Shown here: one piece after another, positions 4,463 to 12,830 of the stretch
Layout: each line of letters opens with the position of its first letter
How positions within the stretch are numbered: position 1 is the stretch's first letter
NCBI RefSeq assembly: GCF_011758765.1
Contig: NZ_JAANOU010000001.1
Coordinates: forward strand, 4,340,001 to 4,404,000
From: Amycolatopsis viridis
GTDB lineage: Bacteria > Actinomycetota > Actinomycetes > Mycobacteriales > Pseudonocardiaceae
Reading direction: 5' to 3'
DNA length: 64,000 nucleotides
The notes under the pieces: generated by a model
What the model was told of the DNA's origin: nothing
Seen by the model: only the letters and a program-made list of their open reading frames with translations
Databases searched by the model: none
Position numbers and translations under genes: made by a program

Positions 4463-5287
4463 ATGGGCACCGCGATCACCGTGATCGTGCTCCTCGTCCT
4501 CGTCGTCGGCGGCATCGCCTACTTCGCCAAGGGCCAGGCCAAGACGCGGCAGCGTCAGCTCGACGACGCCAAGGCCGACGCCCGGCGTCTCGTGGAGCGC
4601 CTGGGCGGCCAGGTGCTCAACCTCGTGGGGTCGAACGAGCCGGCGAAGCAGGCGCTGGCGGACGCGTCCGAGCGGTACAACGCGGCGGGCTCACAGCTGG
4701 AGCAGGCGCAGACGGCCGAGCAGGCCAAGCTGGTCAAGGAGACCGCGCTGGAGGGCCTCTACTACGTGCGCGCGGCGCGTGAGGCGATGGGCATGGACCC
4801 GGGACCCAAGCTGCCCGAGGAGGTCGAGCGCGAGCGCGCCGGCAAGGTCACCGAGGAACGCAGCGTCGACGTCGAGGGGCGCCGCCTGCACGCCTCGCCC
4901 CAGCCGGGTGACGAGACGCCGTACTACTACCCGGGCGGACGCGTGGCCGGCCGTCCGGTGCCACAGGGGTGGTACAGCGAGCCGTGGTGGAAGCCGGCGC
5001 TCGTCGCGGGCGCCTGGGGGCTGGGCTCGGCGCTGCTGTTCAGCGCGATGTTCAGCGGCATGTCGGGTATCGCGAGCGCTGCGGCCTGGGAGTCCGGTTA
5101 CGACGCCGGCCAGGAGGACGCGATGGCCGACGCGGGCGGCGACTTCGGCGACGGCGGTGACCCGGGTGACCCGGGCTCCGACGGCGGCGGGGACTTCGCC
5201 GGGTATGACGGCGGCGGCTTCGACGGCGGCGGGGACTTCGGCGGGTTCGACGGCGGCGGGGACTTCGGCGGCGGCTTCGACATCTGA
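4463..5287 (+). CDS. Membrane protein with Gly/Asp-rich C-terminal tail
   Basis: A 274-aa protein I cannot name. Residues 4-22 form an N-terminal transmembrane helix (TVIVLLVLVVGGIAYFA), followed by a charged, probably coiled-coil region (about 25-120) and a Tyr/Pro-rich linker (YYYPGG). A second hydrophobic segment (about 168-195, LVAGAWGLGSALLFSAMF) precedes a roughly 70-residue tail made of GGGDFGG/FDGGGDF repeats. The ATG is preceded by CTGGAGTGAG. Tails of this type occur in actinobacterial surface or secretion-related membrane proteins, but no function should be assigned. Single gene. Confidence 0.8.
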   Translation: MGTAITVIVLLVLVVGGIAYFAKGQAKTRQRQLDDAKADARRLVERLGGQVLNLVGSNEPAKQALADASERYNAAGSQLEQAQTAEQAKLVKETALEGLYYVRAAREAMGMDPGPKLPEEVERERAGKVTEERSVDVEGRRLHASPQPGDETPYYYPGGRVAGRPVPQGWYSEPWWKPALVAGAWGLGSALLFSAMFSGMSGIASAAAWESGYDAGQEDAMADAGGDFGDGGDPGDPGSDGGGDFAGYDGGGFDGGGDFGGFDGGGDFGGGFDI

Positions 5288-5332: not shown

Positions 5333-6142
5333 TCACGCCGCCTGGCAGACCGGGCACCAGTAGAGGTTCCGTCCGGCCAGCTCGCTGTGGGCGATCGGCG
5401 TGCCGCACACCAGGCAGGGCTGTCCGGTGCGCCGGTAGACGTAGACCTCACCGCCGTGCCGGTCCTGCCGCGGTGCACGGCCAGTGACCTCGGGCAGGTG
5501 CTCGTCGTCGACGGTGTCGATGCGGCCGATCCGCACGCCCTTGCGCATCAGCGCGACGAGATCCGCCCACATCTCCTTCCACTGCACGGAATCCACCGCA
5601 CGGCCGGGCACCATCGGGTTGATCCGGTGCCGGAACAAGACCTCCGCGCGGTACACGTTGCCCACCCCGGAGATCACCGACTGGTTCATCAGCAGCGCGG
5701 CGATCGACGTGCGGGACGCGGAGATCCGTTGCCACGCCTCGTCCGGGCGGGCGTCGCGGCGCAGCGGGTCGGGCCCGAGCCGCGCCGTGATGGCGTCCAC
5801 CTCACCCGGGGTCAGCAGTTCGCAGCGGGTGGGGCCGCGCAGGTCCGTCCAATGTGTCCGGCCGGAGAACCGCAGCCGGACCTGTCCGACCGGCGGCGTT
5901 TCCGGCAGCTCCGCCTCGGTGAACGTGCCGTACAGTCCCAAGTGGACGTGCACGGACCCGATCGCGCCGAAGTCGTGGAACAGGTGCTTGCCGTACGCCT
6001 CGGCGCGGAGCATGACCTGACCGTCCAGAAGGGCCGCTTCGCGCGCGAAGCGGCCCTGCGGACTCGATACGCCGACCGGTGCGCCCGCGTAGCGCCGCTG
6101 GTGCAGGCGGGCGAGCCGGTGGAGGGTGTGCCCTTCGGGCAT
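5333..6142 (-). CDS. nei: Fpg/Nei-family DNA glycosylase (endonuclease VIII type)
   Basis: A 269-aa base-excision repair enzyme that removes oxidised bases and cleaves abasic sites. The mature N-terminus begins PEGHT, supplying the catalytic Pro and Glu. The helix-two-turn-helix region (about 150-190, including SVISGVGNVYRAE) is intact, and the C-terminal zinc finger has CLVCG and WCPVC pairs. PEGHT rather than PELPE places it in the Nei group. It is translationally coupled to rpiB: the rpiB stop TGA and this ATG share a base (6140-6144). The nei-rpiB order matches Rv2464c-Rv2465c of M. tuberculosis. Confidence 0.93.
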   Translation of the reverse strand: MPEGHTLHRLARLHQRRYAGAPVGVSSPQGRFAREAALLDGQVMLRAEAYGKHLFHDFGAIGSVHVHLGLYGTFTEAELPETPPVGQVRLRFSGRTHWTDLRGPTRCELLTPGEVDAITARLGPDPLRRDARPDEAWQRISASRTSIAALLMNQSVISGVGNVYRAEVLFRHRINPMVPGRAVDSVQWKEMWADLVALMRKGVRIGRIDTVDDEHLPEVTGRAPRQDRHGGEVYVYRRTGQPCLVCGTPIAHSELAGRNLYWCPVCQAA

Positions 6143-6612
6143 CAGTGGGGCAGCGGCGGCGGGGTGCCGGTGCGCTCGTAGTCGAGCATCTGCTGGATCC
6201 GGCGGACGTGCCGCTCGTCCTCGGACGGCGGGGTCGACAGGAACGCGTCGACGATCGCGGTGGCCTCGTCGACGGTGTGCATGCGGGCGCCGATGCCGAT
6301 GAGCTGCGCGTGGTTGTGCTGGCGGGCCAGCTCGGCGATCTCCGGCTTCCAGGCCAGCGCCGCCCGGGCGCCCGCCACCTTGTTCGCGGCGATCTGCTCA
6401 CCGTTGCCCGAACCGCCGATGACGATGCCCAGGCTGCCCTCGTCGGCCACCACGCGGCGGGCGGTCTCGATGCAGAAGGCCGGGTAGTCGTCGGCGGCGT
6501 CGTAGACGGCCGGGCCGATGTCGGTGACCTCGTGGCCCTGGCCCTTCAAGTACTCGACCAAGTGGTTCTTCAGCTCGAAACCGGCGTGGTCTGATCCCAA
6601 GTAGACGCGCAC
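6142..6612 (-). CDS. rpiB: Ribose-5-phosphate isomerase B
   Basis: A 156-aa RpiB/LacAB-type isomerase interconverting ribulose-5-phosphate and ribose-5-phosphate in the pentose phosphate pathway. The N-terminus MRVYLGSDHAGFELKNH and the phosphate-binding GIVIGGSGNGEQIAANK segment are diagnostic. In this family the catalytic base is Cys or Glu in the GGSGN(G/C) loop context; the actinobacterial GGSGNGE form is seen here. The GTG at 6612 is chosen because the family starts exactly there, although the frame is open further upstream. Overlaps the nei start by one base. Confidence 0.95.
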   Translation of the reverse strand: MRVYLGSDHAGFELKNHLVEYLKGQGHEVTDIGPAVYDAADDYPAFCIETARRVVADEGSLGIVIGGSGNGEQIAANKVAGARAALAWKPEIAELARQHNHAQLIGIGARMHTVDEATAIVDAFLSTPPSEDERHVRRIQQMLDYERTGTPPPLPH

Positions 6613-8097: not shown

Positions 8098-8204
8098 CGA
8101 TGTTCTCCCTGTGGGAAGTGGGGCTGGCTCTCCACCGGCCCAACACCGAGCGCACGGCGCTTGTTCCCCTGCGCGGGCATGATTGGATAGCGGGATCACC
8201 GAGA

Positions 8205-10799
8205 ATGACAACCGCGAGCGTTTCCGAGGTGCCTGTGCCCGCCCCTAATCTGACCCGTGACCAAGCCAAAGAGCGTGCCGAGCTGCTCGAGGTCGAGTCC
8301 TACGACATCGCCCTCGACCTCACGGACGGTAACGGCGGCCCGGGCGAGAGAAGCTTCGAGTCGAAGACCACGATCCGGTTCGCCGCCACGAGACCGGGCG
8401 CGAGCACGTTCGTCGACATCGTGGCCGGTTCCGTCCGCTCGGCCACGCTGAACGGCCAGGCGCTCGACGTCTCCGGCTACGTCGAGGACGACGGGATCAC
8501 GCTGCCCGGCCTCGCCGAGACCAACGAGCTGGTCGTCGAGGCCGACTGCCGCTACATGAACACCGGCGAGGGCCTGCACCGGTTCGTCGACCCGGTCGAC
8601 GACGCGGTCTACCTGTACACGCAGTTCGAGACGGCCGACGCCAAGCGCATGTTCGCCTGCTTCGACCAGCCCGACCTCAAGGCCACCTACCGGCTGACGG
8701 TCACCGCACCGAGTGACTGGAAGGTGGTGTCCAACGCGCCGGTGGAGAGCACCGAGAAGACCGCCGAGGGCGCCACTCGGACGGTGTTCGCGGTGTCCGA
8801 GCGCATCTCCACCTACCTGGTCGCGCTGATCGCCGGCCCGTACGCGGAATGGCACGACCAGTACACCGACGAGCACGGCACCATCCCGCTGGGCATCTAC
8901 TGCCGCGCCTCGCTCGCCGAGCACATGGACGCCGAGCGGCTGTTCACCGAAACCAAGCAGGGTTTCGGTTTCTACCACGAGGCGTTCGCCACGCCGTACC
9001 CGTTCCGCAAGTACGACCAGCTGTTCGTGCCGGAGTTCAACGCGGGCGCGATGGAGAACGCGGGCGCGGTGACGTTCCTGGAGGACTACGTCTTCCGCAG
9101 CCGCGTCACCCGCTACGCCTACGAGCGGCGTGCCGAGACGCTGCTGCACGAGATGGCGCACATGTGGTTCGGTGACCTGGTCACCATGCGCTGGTGGGAC
9201 GACCTGTGGCTGAACGAGTCGTTCGCGACGTTCGCGAGCGTGCTGGCGCAGGCCGAGGCCACCGAGTACGAGCACGCCTGGACCAGCTTCGCCAACATCG
9301 AGAAGTCCTGGGCCTACCGGCAGGACCAGCTGCCCTCGACGCACCCGATCGCGGCCGACATCGTGGACCTGCAGGCGGTCGAGGTGAACTTCGACGGCAT
9401 CACCTACGCCAAGGGCGCCAGCGTGCTCAAGCAGCTGGTCGCCTACGTCGGGCTGGAGCACTTCATGGCCGGGCTGCGGGTGTACTTCGGCAAGCACGCG
9501 TGGGGCAATGCCACGCTGGCCGACCTGCTCAGCGCGCTGGAGGAGGCGTCCGGCCGCGACCTGTCCGGCTGGAGCGCGCAGTGGCTGGAGACCACCGGCC
9601 TGAACTCGCTGCGGCCGAAGTTCGACACCGACGACGAGGGCCGGTTCACGTCCTTCGCCGTGCTGCAGACCGGGGCCAAACCGGGTGCGGGTGAGCTGCG
9701 CACCCACCGCATCGCGGTCGGCGTGTACGACGACGAGGGCGGCAAGCTGGTCCGCAAGCAGCGGGTGGAACTGGACGTCGAGGGCGAGCGCACCGAGGTG
9801 CCGGAGCTGATCGGCCGGCCGGCGGGCAAGCTGGTGCTGGTCAACGACGACGACCTGACCTACTGCACGATGCGCCTGGACACCGGTTCGCTCACCACGC
9901 TGGTGGACCGGATCGCCGACATCACCGAGCCGCTGCCGCGCACCCTGTGCTGGTCGGCGGCGTGGGAGATGACCCGCGAGGCCGAGCTGAAGGCGCGCGA
10001 CTTCGTGCAGATCGTGCTGCACGGCATCCACGCGGAGACCGAGGTCGGTGTCGTGCAGCGGCTGCTGCTGCAGGCGCAGACCGCGTTGAACTCCTACGCG
10101 CAGCCGTCGTGGGCGGCGGCGCAGGGCTGGCCGCAGTTCACCAGCACGGTGCTGGAGCTGGCCCGGGGCGCCGAGCCGGGCTCGGACCACCAGCTGGCGT
10201 TCGTCAACTCGCTCACCGGTTCGGTCCTCGACGAGGCGACGCTCGACGTGCTGGCCGGCTGGCTGGACGGGTCGAACCCGCTGGAGGGCCTGGTCGTGGA
10301 CGCGGACCTGCGCTGGCGGTTGCTGAACGCGCTGGTGGCGCACGGCCGGGCGGGCGACGCGGAGATCGACGCGGAGCTGGCGCGCGACGACACGGCGACG
10401 GGCCGCCGCCACGCCGAGCACGCCCGCGCCCTGCGGCCCACCGCCGAGGCGAAGGCGGACGCCTGGCAGCGCGCGGTCTACGACGACGACCTGCCGAACG
10501 CGATGAGCAACGCCATCATCGGTGGCTTCTCGCACCCCGGGCAGAAGGGCCTGCTCACCGGCTACGTGAGCACCTACTTCGGCGCGATCGACGAGGTCTG
10601 GTCCCGCCGGTCGAGCGAGCGGGCGCAGCCCACGGTGGTCGGCCTGTTCCCGGCCTGGGCGGTCGAGCACTCGACGGTCGAGGCGGCCGACGAGTGGCTG
10701 GCCGGCGAGCACCCCGCTGCCCTCCGGCGGCTCGTTTCCGAGGGCCGGGCCGGCATCGTGCGTGCCCTGGCCGCGCGGGAGTTCGACGAGGCCCAGTAG
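8205..10799 (+). CDS. pepN: Aminopeptidase N (M1 metallopeptidase)
   Basis: An 864-aa cytoplasmic zinc aminopeptidase that trims N-terminal residues from peptides. GAMEN is at residues 281-285, the zinc site is HEMAH (315-319) with the third ligand E338 in LNESFA, and the C-terminal ERAP1-like helical domain extends to the end. Length fits actinobacterial PepN. The ATG at 8205 is used; a GTG at 8235 is also possible because homology begins near [11 protein letters not shown]. The gene lies between the Rv2466c-type gene and DUF5130, matching Rv2466c-Rv2467-Rv2468c. Confidence 0.96.
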
Positions 10800-10923: not shown

Positions 10924-11403
10924 CTACCGCCGGGATCCGGCCTGGTCGGCCAGCATGCGCAGGCCGGAGACCAGACCGCCGATGAGGTCGCCCTCCTTGA
11001 AGGACGCGACCATGCTCATCACGGCCAGCTTCGCGCCGCGGTCCGGGAGGCGCCGCACCGCCTCGGAACCGGTCACGATCTCCACGACCCGCTCGCCCGG
11101 CGACACCGCGATCAGCACCGCGTCCGCGGAGCTGGGCTGGATCGTCGAGTGCAGCTCCTCGGCGCGGGCGCGGCTCTCGGCGCCCAGCTCGCCCAGGTAG
11201 ACGCTGAAGTCGATCCCGGTCTCGCGGCTCGCGAGCGTCAGGGCCTCGTCGAGACGGGCCAGCTGAACGGTGGTGAATGGGCTGGATGGAGCAGCGGGCT
11301 CGTACATCCGCGCCACCGAGCGGCGGCCGGTCGCCGTAATGGCGACCCCGACCTCCTGCTCCTCGTCCGATCCTCGCTGTCGGGTCAGCTCACCAGCTGC
11401 CAC
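10924..11403 (-). CDS. DUF5130 / TPM-like protein
   Basis: A 159-aa protein of the actinobacterial DUF5130 family, corresponding in position and sequence type to Rv2468c. No transmembrane segment is obvious. Conserved-looking stretches are FTTVQLARLDEALTLAS, TGIDFSVYLGEL and ADAVLIAVSPGERVVEIVTG, a pattern resembling TPM-domain phosphatase-like folds. Its start lies inside the 3' end of ctaJ (14-nt overlap), so the two are translationally coupled. The coupling with a cytochrome oxidase subunit suggests a membrane-respiration context, but the function is unknown. Confidence 0.8.
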   Translation of the reverse strand: MAAGELTRQRGSDEEQEVGVAITATGRRSVARMYEPAAPSSPFTTVQLARLDEALTLASRETGIDFSVYLGELGAESRARAEELHSTIQPSSADAVLIAVSPGERVVEIVTGSEAVRRLPDRGAKLAVMSMVASFKEGDLIGGLVSGLRMLADQAGSRR

Positions 11404-11659
11404 GGGCTCCTCCTGCCGCCGTCACGCTCACGTTCCCGCTCGCGTCCTTGTCCTCCACCGGTGCGCCGGAGTGCGTGTCGTGCACCGTCCCGATACCGTC
11501 CGGGTTGCCGCTCCACCACATCGGCGGGTGCTCCCAGGCCTGCCCGGGCCGGTAGCGCGGTGTGCCGGTCAGCTTCGACCGCAGGGTGAGCAGGGCGATC
11601 ACCCCGTAGATCGCGGCCGGGATCAGCGCGAAGATCAGGATCGTCTCTCCGATGTTCAC
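11390..11659 (-). CDS. ctaJ: Probable aa3-type cytochrome oxidase subunit CtaJ
   Basis: An 89-aa small membrane protein. An N-terminal transmembrane helix (about residues 5-26, ILIFALIPAAIYGVIALLT) is followed by the basic RYRPGQ and aromatic HPPMWWSGNP segments, then a polar tail. This matches the small accessory subunit CtaJ of the actinobacterial III-IV respiratory supercomplex, as I recall it, and the position between pepN/DUF5130 and the HNH gene fits Rv2468A. It overlaps the DUF5130 start. Assignment rests on short-sequence resemblance plus synteny. Confidence 0.72.
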   Translation of the reverse strand: MNIGETILIFALIPAAIYGVIALLTLRSKLTGTPRYRPGQAWEHPPMWWSGNPDGIGTVHDTHSGAPVEDKDASGNVSVTAAGGARGSW

Positions 11660-11831: not shown

Positions 11832-11860
11832 TTGTTCGCCGCGACAGTTCCTCGTAGCTT
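11832..11860 (+). promoter_or_regulatory. Weak candidate promoter for the GTRVT-repeat gene
   Basis: TTGTTC (11832-11837), a 17-bp spacer and TAGCTT (11855-11860) match sigma-70-type hexamers only 3/6 each. It is the best pair seen in the 274-bp space upstream of the repeat gene; the evidence is weak. Confidence 0.25.
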
Positions 11861-11933
11861 TTTCACCTGTACGGGCCTTGCGCCCCGCTCCCCTTCCCCA
11901 TGAGTAACCGCACAGGTCCCGGGAGGACACATC

Positions 11934-12239
11934 ATGAATCTGCTCCGTACCCTCGCTCAGACCAACGACGAGCACGCTCAGTCACTGATCGACGCGTTCA
12001 GCGCCTGCACCACCCGGGGCACGCGTGTGACCCGTGGCACGCGCGTCACCGCCGGTACGCGAGTCACCCGTGGAACCAGGGTCACGCGTGGCACCCGGGT
12101 GACCGCCGGCACCCGCGTCACGCGAGGGACGAGAGTCACCCGGGGCACGCGCGTCACCGCGGGTACCCGAGTGACCCGCGGCACCCGGGTCACCAGGGGT
12201 ACGCGCGTCACCAGCGGTACGCGCGTCACCGCCGCCTGA
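11934..12239 (+). CDS. Arg-rich GTRVTx hexapeptide-repeat protein (unknown)
   Basis: A 101-aa protein I do not recognise. Residues 1-28 are a short, probably helical head (MNLLRTLAQTNDEHAQSL then IDAFSACTTR) with one cysteine (C25). Residues 29-100 are twelve uninterrupted hexapeptides GTRVTx, where x runs R A R R A R R A R R S A, giving an 18-residue super-period. There are about 21 Arg, no Lys and three acidic residues, so it is very basic. Twelve hexapeptides would equal four 18-residue coils of a left-handed beta-helix, but the match to that consensus is partial. Start: ATG preceded by GGGAGGA at good spacing. No signal peptide or lipobox is seen. It is expressed separately from its neighbours (divergent from ctaJ, convergent with HNH). 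A modified-peptide precursor is an alternative, but no modification enzyme is nearby. Confidence 0.8.
   Translation: MNLLRTLAQTNDEHAQSLIDAFSACTTRGTRVTRGTRVTAGTRVTRGTRVTRGTRVTAGTRVTRGTRVTRGTRVTAGTRVTRGTRVTRGTRVTSGTRVTAA
12018..12233 (+). repeat. Twelve 18-nt tandem coding repeats (GTRVTx)
   Basis: Twelve in-frame 18-nt units encode GTRVTx. Amino acids 1-5 are invariant, yet codons vary: Arg is written with CGT, CGC, CGA, CGG, AGG and AGA, and Gly with GGC, GGT, GGA and GGG. The variation is synonymous only in the plus-strand frame, which identifies the coding strand. Confidence 0.95.
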
Positions 12240-12276
12240 CGGCCCGGACCACCACCGAGACGCACCACGTCGGAAC

Positions 12277-12300
12277 GCCCCGGCTCACGACAGCCGGGGC
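12277..12300. terminator. Hairpin between repeat gene and HNH gene
   Basis: GCCCCGGCT and AGCCGGGGC form a 9-bp stem with a 6-nt loop between the two convergent stops. No U-tract is present. Confidence 0.45.
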
Positions 12301-12317
12301 ACCGGGGTGTCCCGGAA

Positions 12318-12830
12318 TCAGGCGGCGACACCCAGGTAGGGCTGCCACAACGGATCCGCGTCGCCCGAGTGCACCAGCAGCCGCCAGTGCGGGCCGCGCG
12401 GCGCGGTCGGCACGACCCGGAGCCGCCAGCCCAGCTCCTCCAGGAGCCGGTCGGCCTTGCGGTGATTGCACTTCGCGCAGCACGCGACGCAGTTCTGCCA
12501 GCTGTGCGGGCCGCCCCGGCTGCGGGGCAGCACGTGGTCGATCGTCTCGGCCCGGGCGCCGCAGTAGGCGCACTTGTAGCGGTCCCGGTGCATGAGCCCG
12601 GCCCGCGTCAGCGGCACCTGCGCCCGGTAGGGCACCCGCACGTACGTCGACAACCGGATCACCGACGGCACGGGCAGCGACAACGTCGCCGCGTGCAGCG
12701 TCAGCCCGGCCGGATCGCCGTGCACGACCTCCGCCTTCCCGCACATGACCAGCACCACGGCCCGCCGCAGCGGGAGCGCGGTCAGCGGTTCGAACGTGGC
12801 GTTGAGCAGCAGCACGCGCCGCCGGCCCAT
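12318..12830 (-). CDS. HNH endonuclease domain protein (Rv2469c-like)
   Basis: A 170-aa HNH nuclease-fold protein. The N-terminal segment RVLLLNATFEPLTALPLRRA is typical of the actinobacterial Rv2469c family. The zinc/metal core has CAYCG, then IDHVLPRSRGG with the catalytic His, and CCAKCNHRKADRL. The substrate (DNA or RNA, repair or defence) is unknown; broad conservation beside housekeeping genes argues against a restriction role. The ATG at 12830 is placed just before the conserved N-terminus; the upstream extension in frame lacks family features. Position next to ctaJ/DUF5130 agrees with the mycobacterial order. Confidence 0.86.
   Translation of the reverse strand: MGRRRVLLLNATFEPLTALPLRRAVVLVMCGKAEVVHGDPAGLTLHAATLSLPVPSVIRLSTYVRVPYRAQVPLTRAGLMHRDRYKCAYCGARAETIDHVLPRSRGGPHSWQNCVACCAKCNHRKADRLLEELGWRLRVVPTAPRGPHWRLLVHSGDADPLWQPYLGVAA

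Follow-up and report, generated by a model that had tools for sequence, protein, structure and literature searches.

Several described systems resemble, each in part, the repeat protein considered here. With left-handed beta-helix proteins (Hexapep, PF00132; LpxD, CcmN) the likeness lies in a six-residue period, in array runs of up to three units and, in the second of the two array families described below, in the order V/I, then G, then S/T/A, whereas the arrays differ in their variable spacing, in copy numbers as low as three, in an Arg at position 3 and in having no catalytic domain. DUF2345, which occurs in VgrG spike proteins, is resembled by arrays with an eight-residue period, but only in one lineage and together with unrelated families, and no other VgrG domain accompanies it. 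Pentapeptide repeat (RfrA) proteins consist of A(D/N)LXX repeats, and no match to that Pfam family was obtained among the array proteins tested. RGG/RG-box regions bind RNA, and most second-family arrays are RGxRxG repeats, but other lineages lack the RG context and one class lacks positive charge. The ssrA (tmRNA) tag of the present genome, AKTNSQRDFALAA, is resembled by family tails such as CQSDFALAA and ARRDDFSLAA, which differ from it in being genomically encoded on a defined protein and in being missing from many members, including the protein described here. The last residues of SspB form a tether, and its ALRVVK shares with the array unit GVRVT the order non-polar, Arg, Val, a likeness of few residues; unlike SspB, the arrays hold many copies and have no ssrA-binding domain. 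Both SspB and RssB bind the zinc-binding domain of ClpX (PMC7804408).

The window, a 64,000-nucleotide stretch of the Amycolatopsis viridis genome, holds an array gene whose parts and neighbours are listed in Table 1. The first-pass annotation had described a 28-residue head and twelve gap-free GTRVTx units on the forward strand, with about 21 Arg, no Lys, a single Cys, threonine at every third residue and a ribosome-binding site of its own, and translation bears this description out: MNLLRTLAQTNDEHAQSLIDAFSACTTR is followed by the twelve units, one Ala and the stop, the counts are 21, 0 and 1, and Thr occupies positions 2 and 5 of every unit. The x residues read R A R R A R R A R R S A in unit order, and Tandem Repeats Finder reported periods of 18, 36, 54 and 72 bases, with the top score at 54. 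A GGAGG is also frequent upstream of the array genes of relatives. Summed over all pairs of the twelve units, 197 base differences are synonymous and none changes an amino acid; the nearest relative carries an identical set of twelve units in register, and from the first unit to the end it differs by 17 synonymous and no amino-acid changes. Because all these differences are synonymous, both between units and between the two genes, the array is not a chance open reading frame. A minus-strand frame over the array (VTRVP...) is open since wobble positions coincide on both strands; it was rejected as a gene, for its motif is kept in 10 of 12 units against 12 of 12 in the plus frame, two AGR arginine codons turning R into L, and the ribosome-binding site and the conserved leader belong to the plus frame.

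Table 1. Features of the array locus, in window coordinates.
Feature	Position	Strand	Basis or occurrence
M1 aminopeptidase gene, syntenic	8100–10799	+	Pfam Peptidase_M1; 20/20 loci examined
DUF5130/TPM-domain gene, syntenic, upstream	10924–11403	-	Pfam; 20/20 block-bearing loci examined
Small gene, syntenic divergent neighbour	11390–11659	-	no Pfam match; 20/20 loci
Putative sigma-A-like promoter: TTGTTC (11832–11837), 17-nt spacer, TAGCTT (11855–11860)	11832–11860	+	read from the sequence
Promoter-proximal block, TTTCACCTGTACGGGCCTTGCG; 73 nt from block start to ATG	11861–11882	+	conserved in relatives' leaders
Ribosome-binding site, GGGAGGA, ending 6 bases 5' of ATG	11921–11927	+	read from the sequence
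Array gene, 101 aa	11934–12239	+	translation, ORF list, relatives
Head, 28 residues, MNLLRTLAQTNDEHAQSLIDAFSACTTR	11934–12017	+	nearly unconstrained evolution, dN/dS 0.90
Twelve GTRVTx units	12018–12233	+	translation; dN/dS 0.02 over eleven close pairs
Final Ala codon and stop (protein end ...VTAA)	12234–12239	+	translation
GC hairpin, 9 bp, between convergent array and HNH genes	12277–12300	.	fold of 12240–12320
HNH endonuclease gene, convergent syntenic neighbour	12318–12830	-	Pfam HNH; 20/20 block-bearing loci

The array is a real gene with homologues that keep the repeat, as the first-pass reading had required. Close relatives were present in all 18 same-genus genomes searched, and arrays were found under 26 further genus labels, a count that includes the labels of genomes in which an array was read; all belong to the taxonomic family of the window, hereafter the first family. 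The search of named genomes matched 111 places, and among the best 80, which were kept, the array genera include Amycolatopsis, Prauserella, Saccharomonospora, Actinophytocola, Kibdelosporangium, Actinokineospora, Haloechinothrix and Qaidamihabitans, the nearest named relatives of the window genome being Amycolatopsis, e.g. A. tucumanensis. Fifteen first-family genomes that gave no strong protein match or had no block were examined through their HNH gene, and the array was present in ten; of the others, three (G020, G021, G289) have almost no room for it at the HNH gene, G293 shows none, and in G022 the HNH gene was found without its usual neighbours. We found no description of the array family among the literature matches listed, and no family matched among those searched, the window protein reaching the cut-off of no family model, in agreement with the earlier remark that no family with this repeat is known. 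Searches of phages and plasmids with the window protein gave no hit at E 0.01, and a GVRIS protein had none in viral contigs; a viral contig match to the window protein was discarded as low-complexity DNA open in several frames.

Across genera, the peptides read behind the block are GTRVT, GTRIT, GVRVT, GVRIS, GVRIH, GVRIE and SVRIT. In a set of 120 distinct proteins with at least four units each (77 from named loci; L107 and L111 left out) we counted 1433 units of GTRVT, 172 of GVRIS, 102 of SVRIT, 44 of GTRIT, 35 of GVRVT, 22 of GVRIH and 19 of GVRIE. Units are spaced by 6, 8, 9, 10 and more residues, mostly 6 for GTRVT and mostly 8 or 9 for GVRIS and SVRIT, and linkers of many lengths occur in first-family arrays. 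A conserved repeat number, the lack of which the first-pass annotation had named as counting against its reading, was not found, copy number ranging from 5 to 51 in the first family and from 3 to 51 over both families. In L107 (1971–2756), from an Aeromicrobium-labelled metagenome-assembled genome, the protein begins like a signal peptide and contains twelve GTRVT units and another segment that has no Pfam match; the start of a neighbouring ORF is near-identical, the promoter-proximal block is absent, and this is thus a GTRVT array outside the first-family architecture. In L108 (6001–6399), whose record bears the label Rhodococcus rhodnii NRRL B-16535, array and leader closely resemble those of Kibdelosporangium, and the label or assembly may be wrong. 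In L111 (around 5826–6440; Saccharomonospora sp. CUA-673), a block variant and a normal head start precede an array whose frame changes part-way, either an assembly error or a decaying copy.

Selection on the repeats is strong and on the head nearly absent. From 28 pairs of array genes the eleven closest, all in register, were chosen by eye, out-of-register pairs being among the 17 dropped; since these eleven, with 11 to 15 copies per protein, are all Amycolatopsis-type and share ancestry, P values from them are rough. Over repeats and tail the synonymous changes number 191 and the amino-acid changes 10 (dN/dS 0.022), and over the head 13.5 and 38.5 (dN/dS 0.901), so that the head, which had been expected to be conserved, is nearly unconstrained; across all 28 pairs pN/pS is 0.29 for the repeats and 0.95 for the head. 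Among 770 motif codons 145 carry a synonymous change and 2 are replaced, among 154 codons of the joiner x the numbers are 38 and 3, with no R replaced by another residue, and among 74 tail codons they are 8 and 3. Within proteins, 1816 of the 1877 units lying within two changes of the commonest pentapeptide of their protein equal it exactly; in 92 of 120 proteins every unit does so, and in three the exact share is under 80%. A within-gene comparison over all 120 genes undercounts amino-acid changes, because its units were picked by the motif pattern, and the estimate of selection is therefore based on the in-register pairs. Unit codons differ although the peptides are identical, and where lineages switch peptide all units of an array change together. 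The units look identical by selection rather than by recent copying, because the repeats carry about three times the synonymous divergence of the head (0.229 vs 0.073 over the eleven pairs) and rare Arg codons are over-used in arrays of all species (AGG 9% and CGA 8%, vs 1% each in seven window genes). In the window (12018–12233), both features read as if identical DNA repeats were selected against.

The place of the gene and its leader are conserved as well. Gene order is M1 aminopeptidase, DUF5130, small gene, array, HNH, with MscS and globin genes (Pfam names) next at 18 of 20 block-bearing loci; no modifying enzyme was seen among the shared annotated neighbours at 20 loci, as the first pass had said of the window, and such enzymes elsewhere are possible. 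In an alignment of 78 leaders the block (consensus TTTCACCTGTACGGNCCTTGCG) is more conserved than the head. It stands with at most three mismatches upstream of 111 of 119 array genes, exactly (N free) in 73, a count that is partly selected because part of the loci were found through the block, the named loci having been found by protein alone. Six of the eight genes that fall outside this limit carry a Prauserella variant of the block, L099 has four mismatches through an insertion, and L200, whose start is misassigned, does have the block in its locus; the distance from block to ATG is 71–75 nt in 109 of the 112 genes with at most four mismatches. The block 20-mer with at most two mismatches was found in 68 of 79 first-family genomes and in 3 of the 318 remaining genomes of the order, compared with 8 of 397 for the backwards control; part of the 68 were inspected, L138 being a chance site without array, and L151 has the block and no array by the filter used. 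A search of the class sample gave 10 matches in 394 genomes, two in the first family and eight without an array downstream. The 14-base core of the block has one exact site in its own genome; a role as a regulon signal was rejected, sites with at most two mismatches numbering 15 there and 15 in the backwards control.

Since the sigma-A-like elements lie just upstream of it, the block would perhaps cover the transcription start; CTTGT and TA...T-like stretches also occur upstream of relatives, and a strict promoter consensus scan found none. Thirty single-sequence leader folds showed no common structure by eye, and an Rfam search returned five matches, every one below the gathering score. Downstream, 12240–12320 folds at -41.8 kcal/mol (z -3.06), and its hairpin is a possible terminator without a T run; a terminator scan was negative.

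Many first-family proteins end like degradation tags. The C-terminus is AA in 64 of 120 proteins and LAA in 47, and an ssrA-like end, [DEN][YFL]xLA[AG] (e.g. SDFALAA), occurs in 42. In a background of 1038 non-overlapping ORFs taken from the same loci, each about 200 codons long or longer and some perhaps spurious, the two endings number 1 (LAA) and 0 (ssrA-like). Many of the 42 come from related Amycolatopsis, and others are SVRIT, GVRVT and GVRIH members; the window protein, ending in VTAA, has the AA without an LAA-type degron. Such genomically encoded tails point to a short intended lifetime for some members of the family.

In f4, a second family of the order, 17 genomes were searched and 14 examined, of which 8 have arrays near an HNH gene. 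Its nine ORFs comprise 3xRGGRFG, 3xRGVRVG, 6xRGARIG, 7xRGTRVG, 4xRGIRMG, two with 6xGTRVGF and a 5xRGSRIG pair, with core pentapeptides including GTRVG, GSRIG and GARIG; they are RG-rich, with net charges of +5 to +13, and the head is very short in most. The block and the ssrA-like tail are absent from them, and two members have three units only, with linkers of several residues. Place and motif suggest that the two array families may share common descent. No array was found by the pattern used at 11 HNH loci outside both families (five in f8, three in f16, one each in f2, f15 and f31), a survey beside which ten more genomes were HNH-positive. A class search with a second-family array matched 10 of 394 genomes, three of them known family members; the other seven, among those listed, were rejected as near-exact short DNA repeats or chance frames. 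The RGSRIG pair (L219, 2496–2854) consists of two tandem small ORFs of five units each, adjoining HNH.

The first-pass annotation had compared the array to a left-handed beta-helix, with an 18-residue super-period. Runs of units joined by a single R number 304 of one unit, 154 of two, 213 of three and 8 of four or more, whereas a geometric model with R as frequent as observed predicts about 82 of four or more; the near-sharp stop at three units (18 residues) agrees with the super-period, but the six-residue period is not fixed, spacings in GVRIS and SVRIT lineages being mostly 8–10 rather than contiguous hexads, and the R-R-small pattern often loses its phase. The window order V-T-x-G-T-R departs at position 2 from the hexad consensus [LIV]-[GAED]-x2-[STAV]-x, in line with the partial fit stated in the first pass; second-family V-G-R-G-T-R, I-G-R-G-A-R and I-G-R-G-S-R fit it. 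Neither the window protein nor another GTRVT protein matched Pfam at cut-off, and the window protein scored 27.1 bits against NCBIfam LpxD (cut-off 207). Three of the five second-family arrays tested, (RGTRVG)7, (RGARIG)6 and (RGSRIG)5, reach Hexapep with 28.1–36.1 bits (cut-off 27.0), and (GTRVGF)6 and (RGIRMG)4 gave no match; DUF2345 was reached by all three SVRIT proteins tested of the seven (61–78 bits, cut-off 30.7), while of two GVRIS proteins one stayed below cut-off and the other had no match. Re-ordered controls, four hexads (three distinct orders) and four octads, reach neither cut-off. However, SVRIT proteins also exceed the cut-offs of DUF3540, Pirin_C_2, Cthe_2159, ChapFlgA or Glyco_hydro_65C, a GTRIT protein exceeds that of DUF6799, and two re-ordered controls exceed those of Collagen or DUF7375, others matching beta-helix families below cut-off. 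Periodic proteins thus score falsely in Pfam, and scores of the Hexapep or DUF2345 type are not specific; the beta-helix gains weak support from them.

The selected unit is a single Arg-centred, beta-prone pentapeptide, [GS]-x-R-[VI or another non-polar]-[T/S/G/H/E]. We give a probability of about 0.4 to the reading that identical strands of this kind, each centred on Arg, stack in the cytoplasm into a beta rod or polymer, some members of the family having turnover built in. Each pentapeptide would be a short beta strand stacking on identical neighbours into a beta-solenoid-like rod or homotypic polymer, in which like residues could form ladders, aliphatic residues and Thr or Val inward and Arg outward, with turns occupied by Arg, a small residue or a loop and with copy number setting rod length. 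The protein is probably cytoplasmic, and in lineages with an ssrA-like tail ClpXP-type proteolysis could keep it short-lived; in basic lineages the Arg face may bind a polyanion. Uniform redundant copies at dN/dS 0.02 suggest a need for each copy to fit those next to it, as stacking would demand, and constraint on each of 11 to 15 copies, unexpected for redundant docking sites, would be expected if one wrong rung spoils the stack. Against the rod, members with three units could not build a coil by themselves, the 54-base repeat unit could alone yield runs of three, blocks of one and two are common, and unpaired Arg ladders would repel in basic lineages.

The main rival, possible though doubtful, is a multivalent docking array that serves as decoy or scaffold: the chain would be disordered, and its identical short linear motifs would together bind a single peptide-binding protein of the cell through avidity. 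The flexible spacing, the wide range of copy number, the nearly unconstrained head and the ssrA-like tails would suit such a chain, but it does not readily account for the constraint on each of the redundant copies, and the ssrA-like tail is missing in the second family. Between lineages the T at position 5 is replaced by S, H, E or G, yet there is hardly any mixing within a protein, so that the docking partner would have to co-evolve. The zinc-binding N-domain of ClpX may be proposed as that partner, because the motif x-V/T-R-V/I-T/S resembles the SspB tail ...ALRVVK and part of the family ends ssrA-like; the E. coli SspB sequence used matches 8et3_Y over 1–165. This link is an analogy of motifs, and a literature search linking SspB, ClpX and LRVVK returned no match. 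Pfam agrees only in part with the rod, window-type arrays reaching no model; on the evidence as a whole we rank the docking chain below the rod. A basic, Arg-rich, RG-box-like chain that binds nucleic acid or another polyanion is unlikely. The charge is high in 113 of 120 proteins, which belong to classes of +8 to +66, and the RG-rich second-family arrays point the same way, yet the seven SVRIT proteins range from -10 to +21 (mean -0.7) with the same place and an Arg-centred motif. Net positive charge, conserved in the other classes, is therefore not the common denominator, which tells against the binding of nucleic acid or polyanions raised in the first pass as a function of the whole family, and charge leaves the strict V/I and T/S positions unexplained.

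Cleavage of a multicopy precursor into lineage-specific short peptides, either signal peptides or RiPP cores, would account for identical cores in each protein, concerted change between lineages and variable spacers and copy number. A RiPP leader should however be conserved, whereas the head here is under almost no constraint and is very short in most second-family arrays, which makes a leader-bearing precursor unlikely; no signal peptide was seen by eye in the array-protein heads, and M1 peptidase, DUF5130, HNH, MscS and globin are not known modifying enzymes or exporters, so that the precursor as a whole is rather improbable. Least probable is a DNA- or RNA-level element, such as a repeat target or sponge RNA: the array does adjoin an HNH endonuclease gene and its leader block is more conserved than the head, but the repeat DNA of the window differs at synonymous positions only, the leader folds showed no shared structure by eye, and no Rfam match reached the gathering score.

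Beyond the rod itself, our results raise the possibility, which we put forward tentatively, of an undescribed class of self-stacking bacterial proteins, in which an identical Arg-centred strand would recognise only its own copies and would be lineage-private, internally uniform and changed in concert at one locus, with ssrA-mimicking tails in many members. Most of the genomes sampled from one large actinobacterial family keep, under strong selection, a gene that is made up chiefly of a single five-residue sequence in up to 51 copies, and the concerted change of arrays between genera, together with diverse synonymous sites, offers a natural experiment on homotypic recognition or partner co-evolution. 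Elsewhere in the window, another tandem repeat lies at 5174–5281, with periods of 42, 27, 15 and 12 bases (GGCTCCGACGGCGGCGGGGACTTC...).
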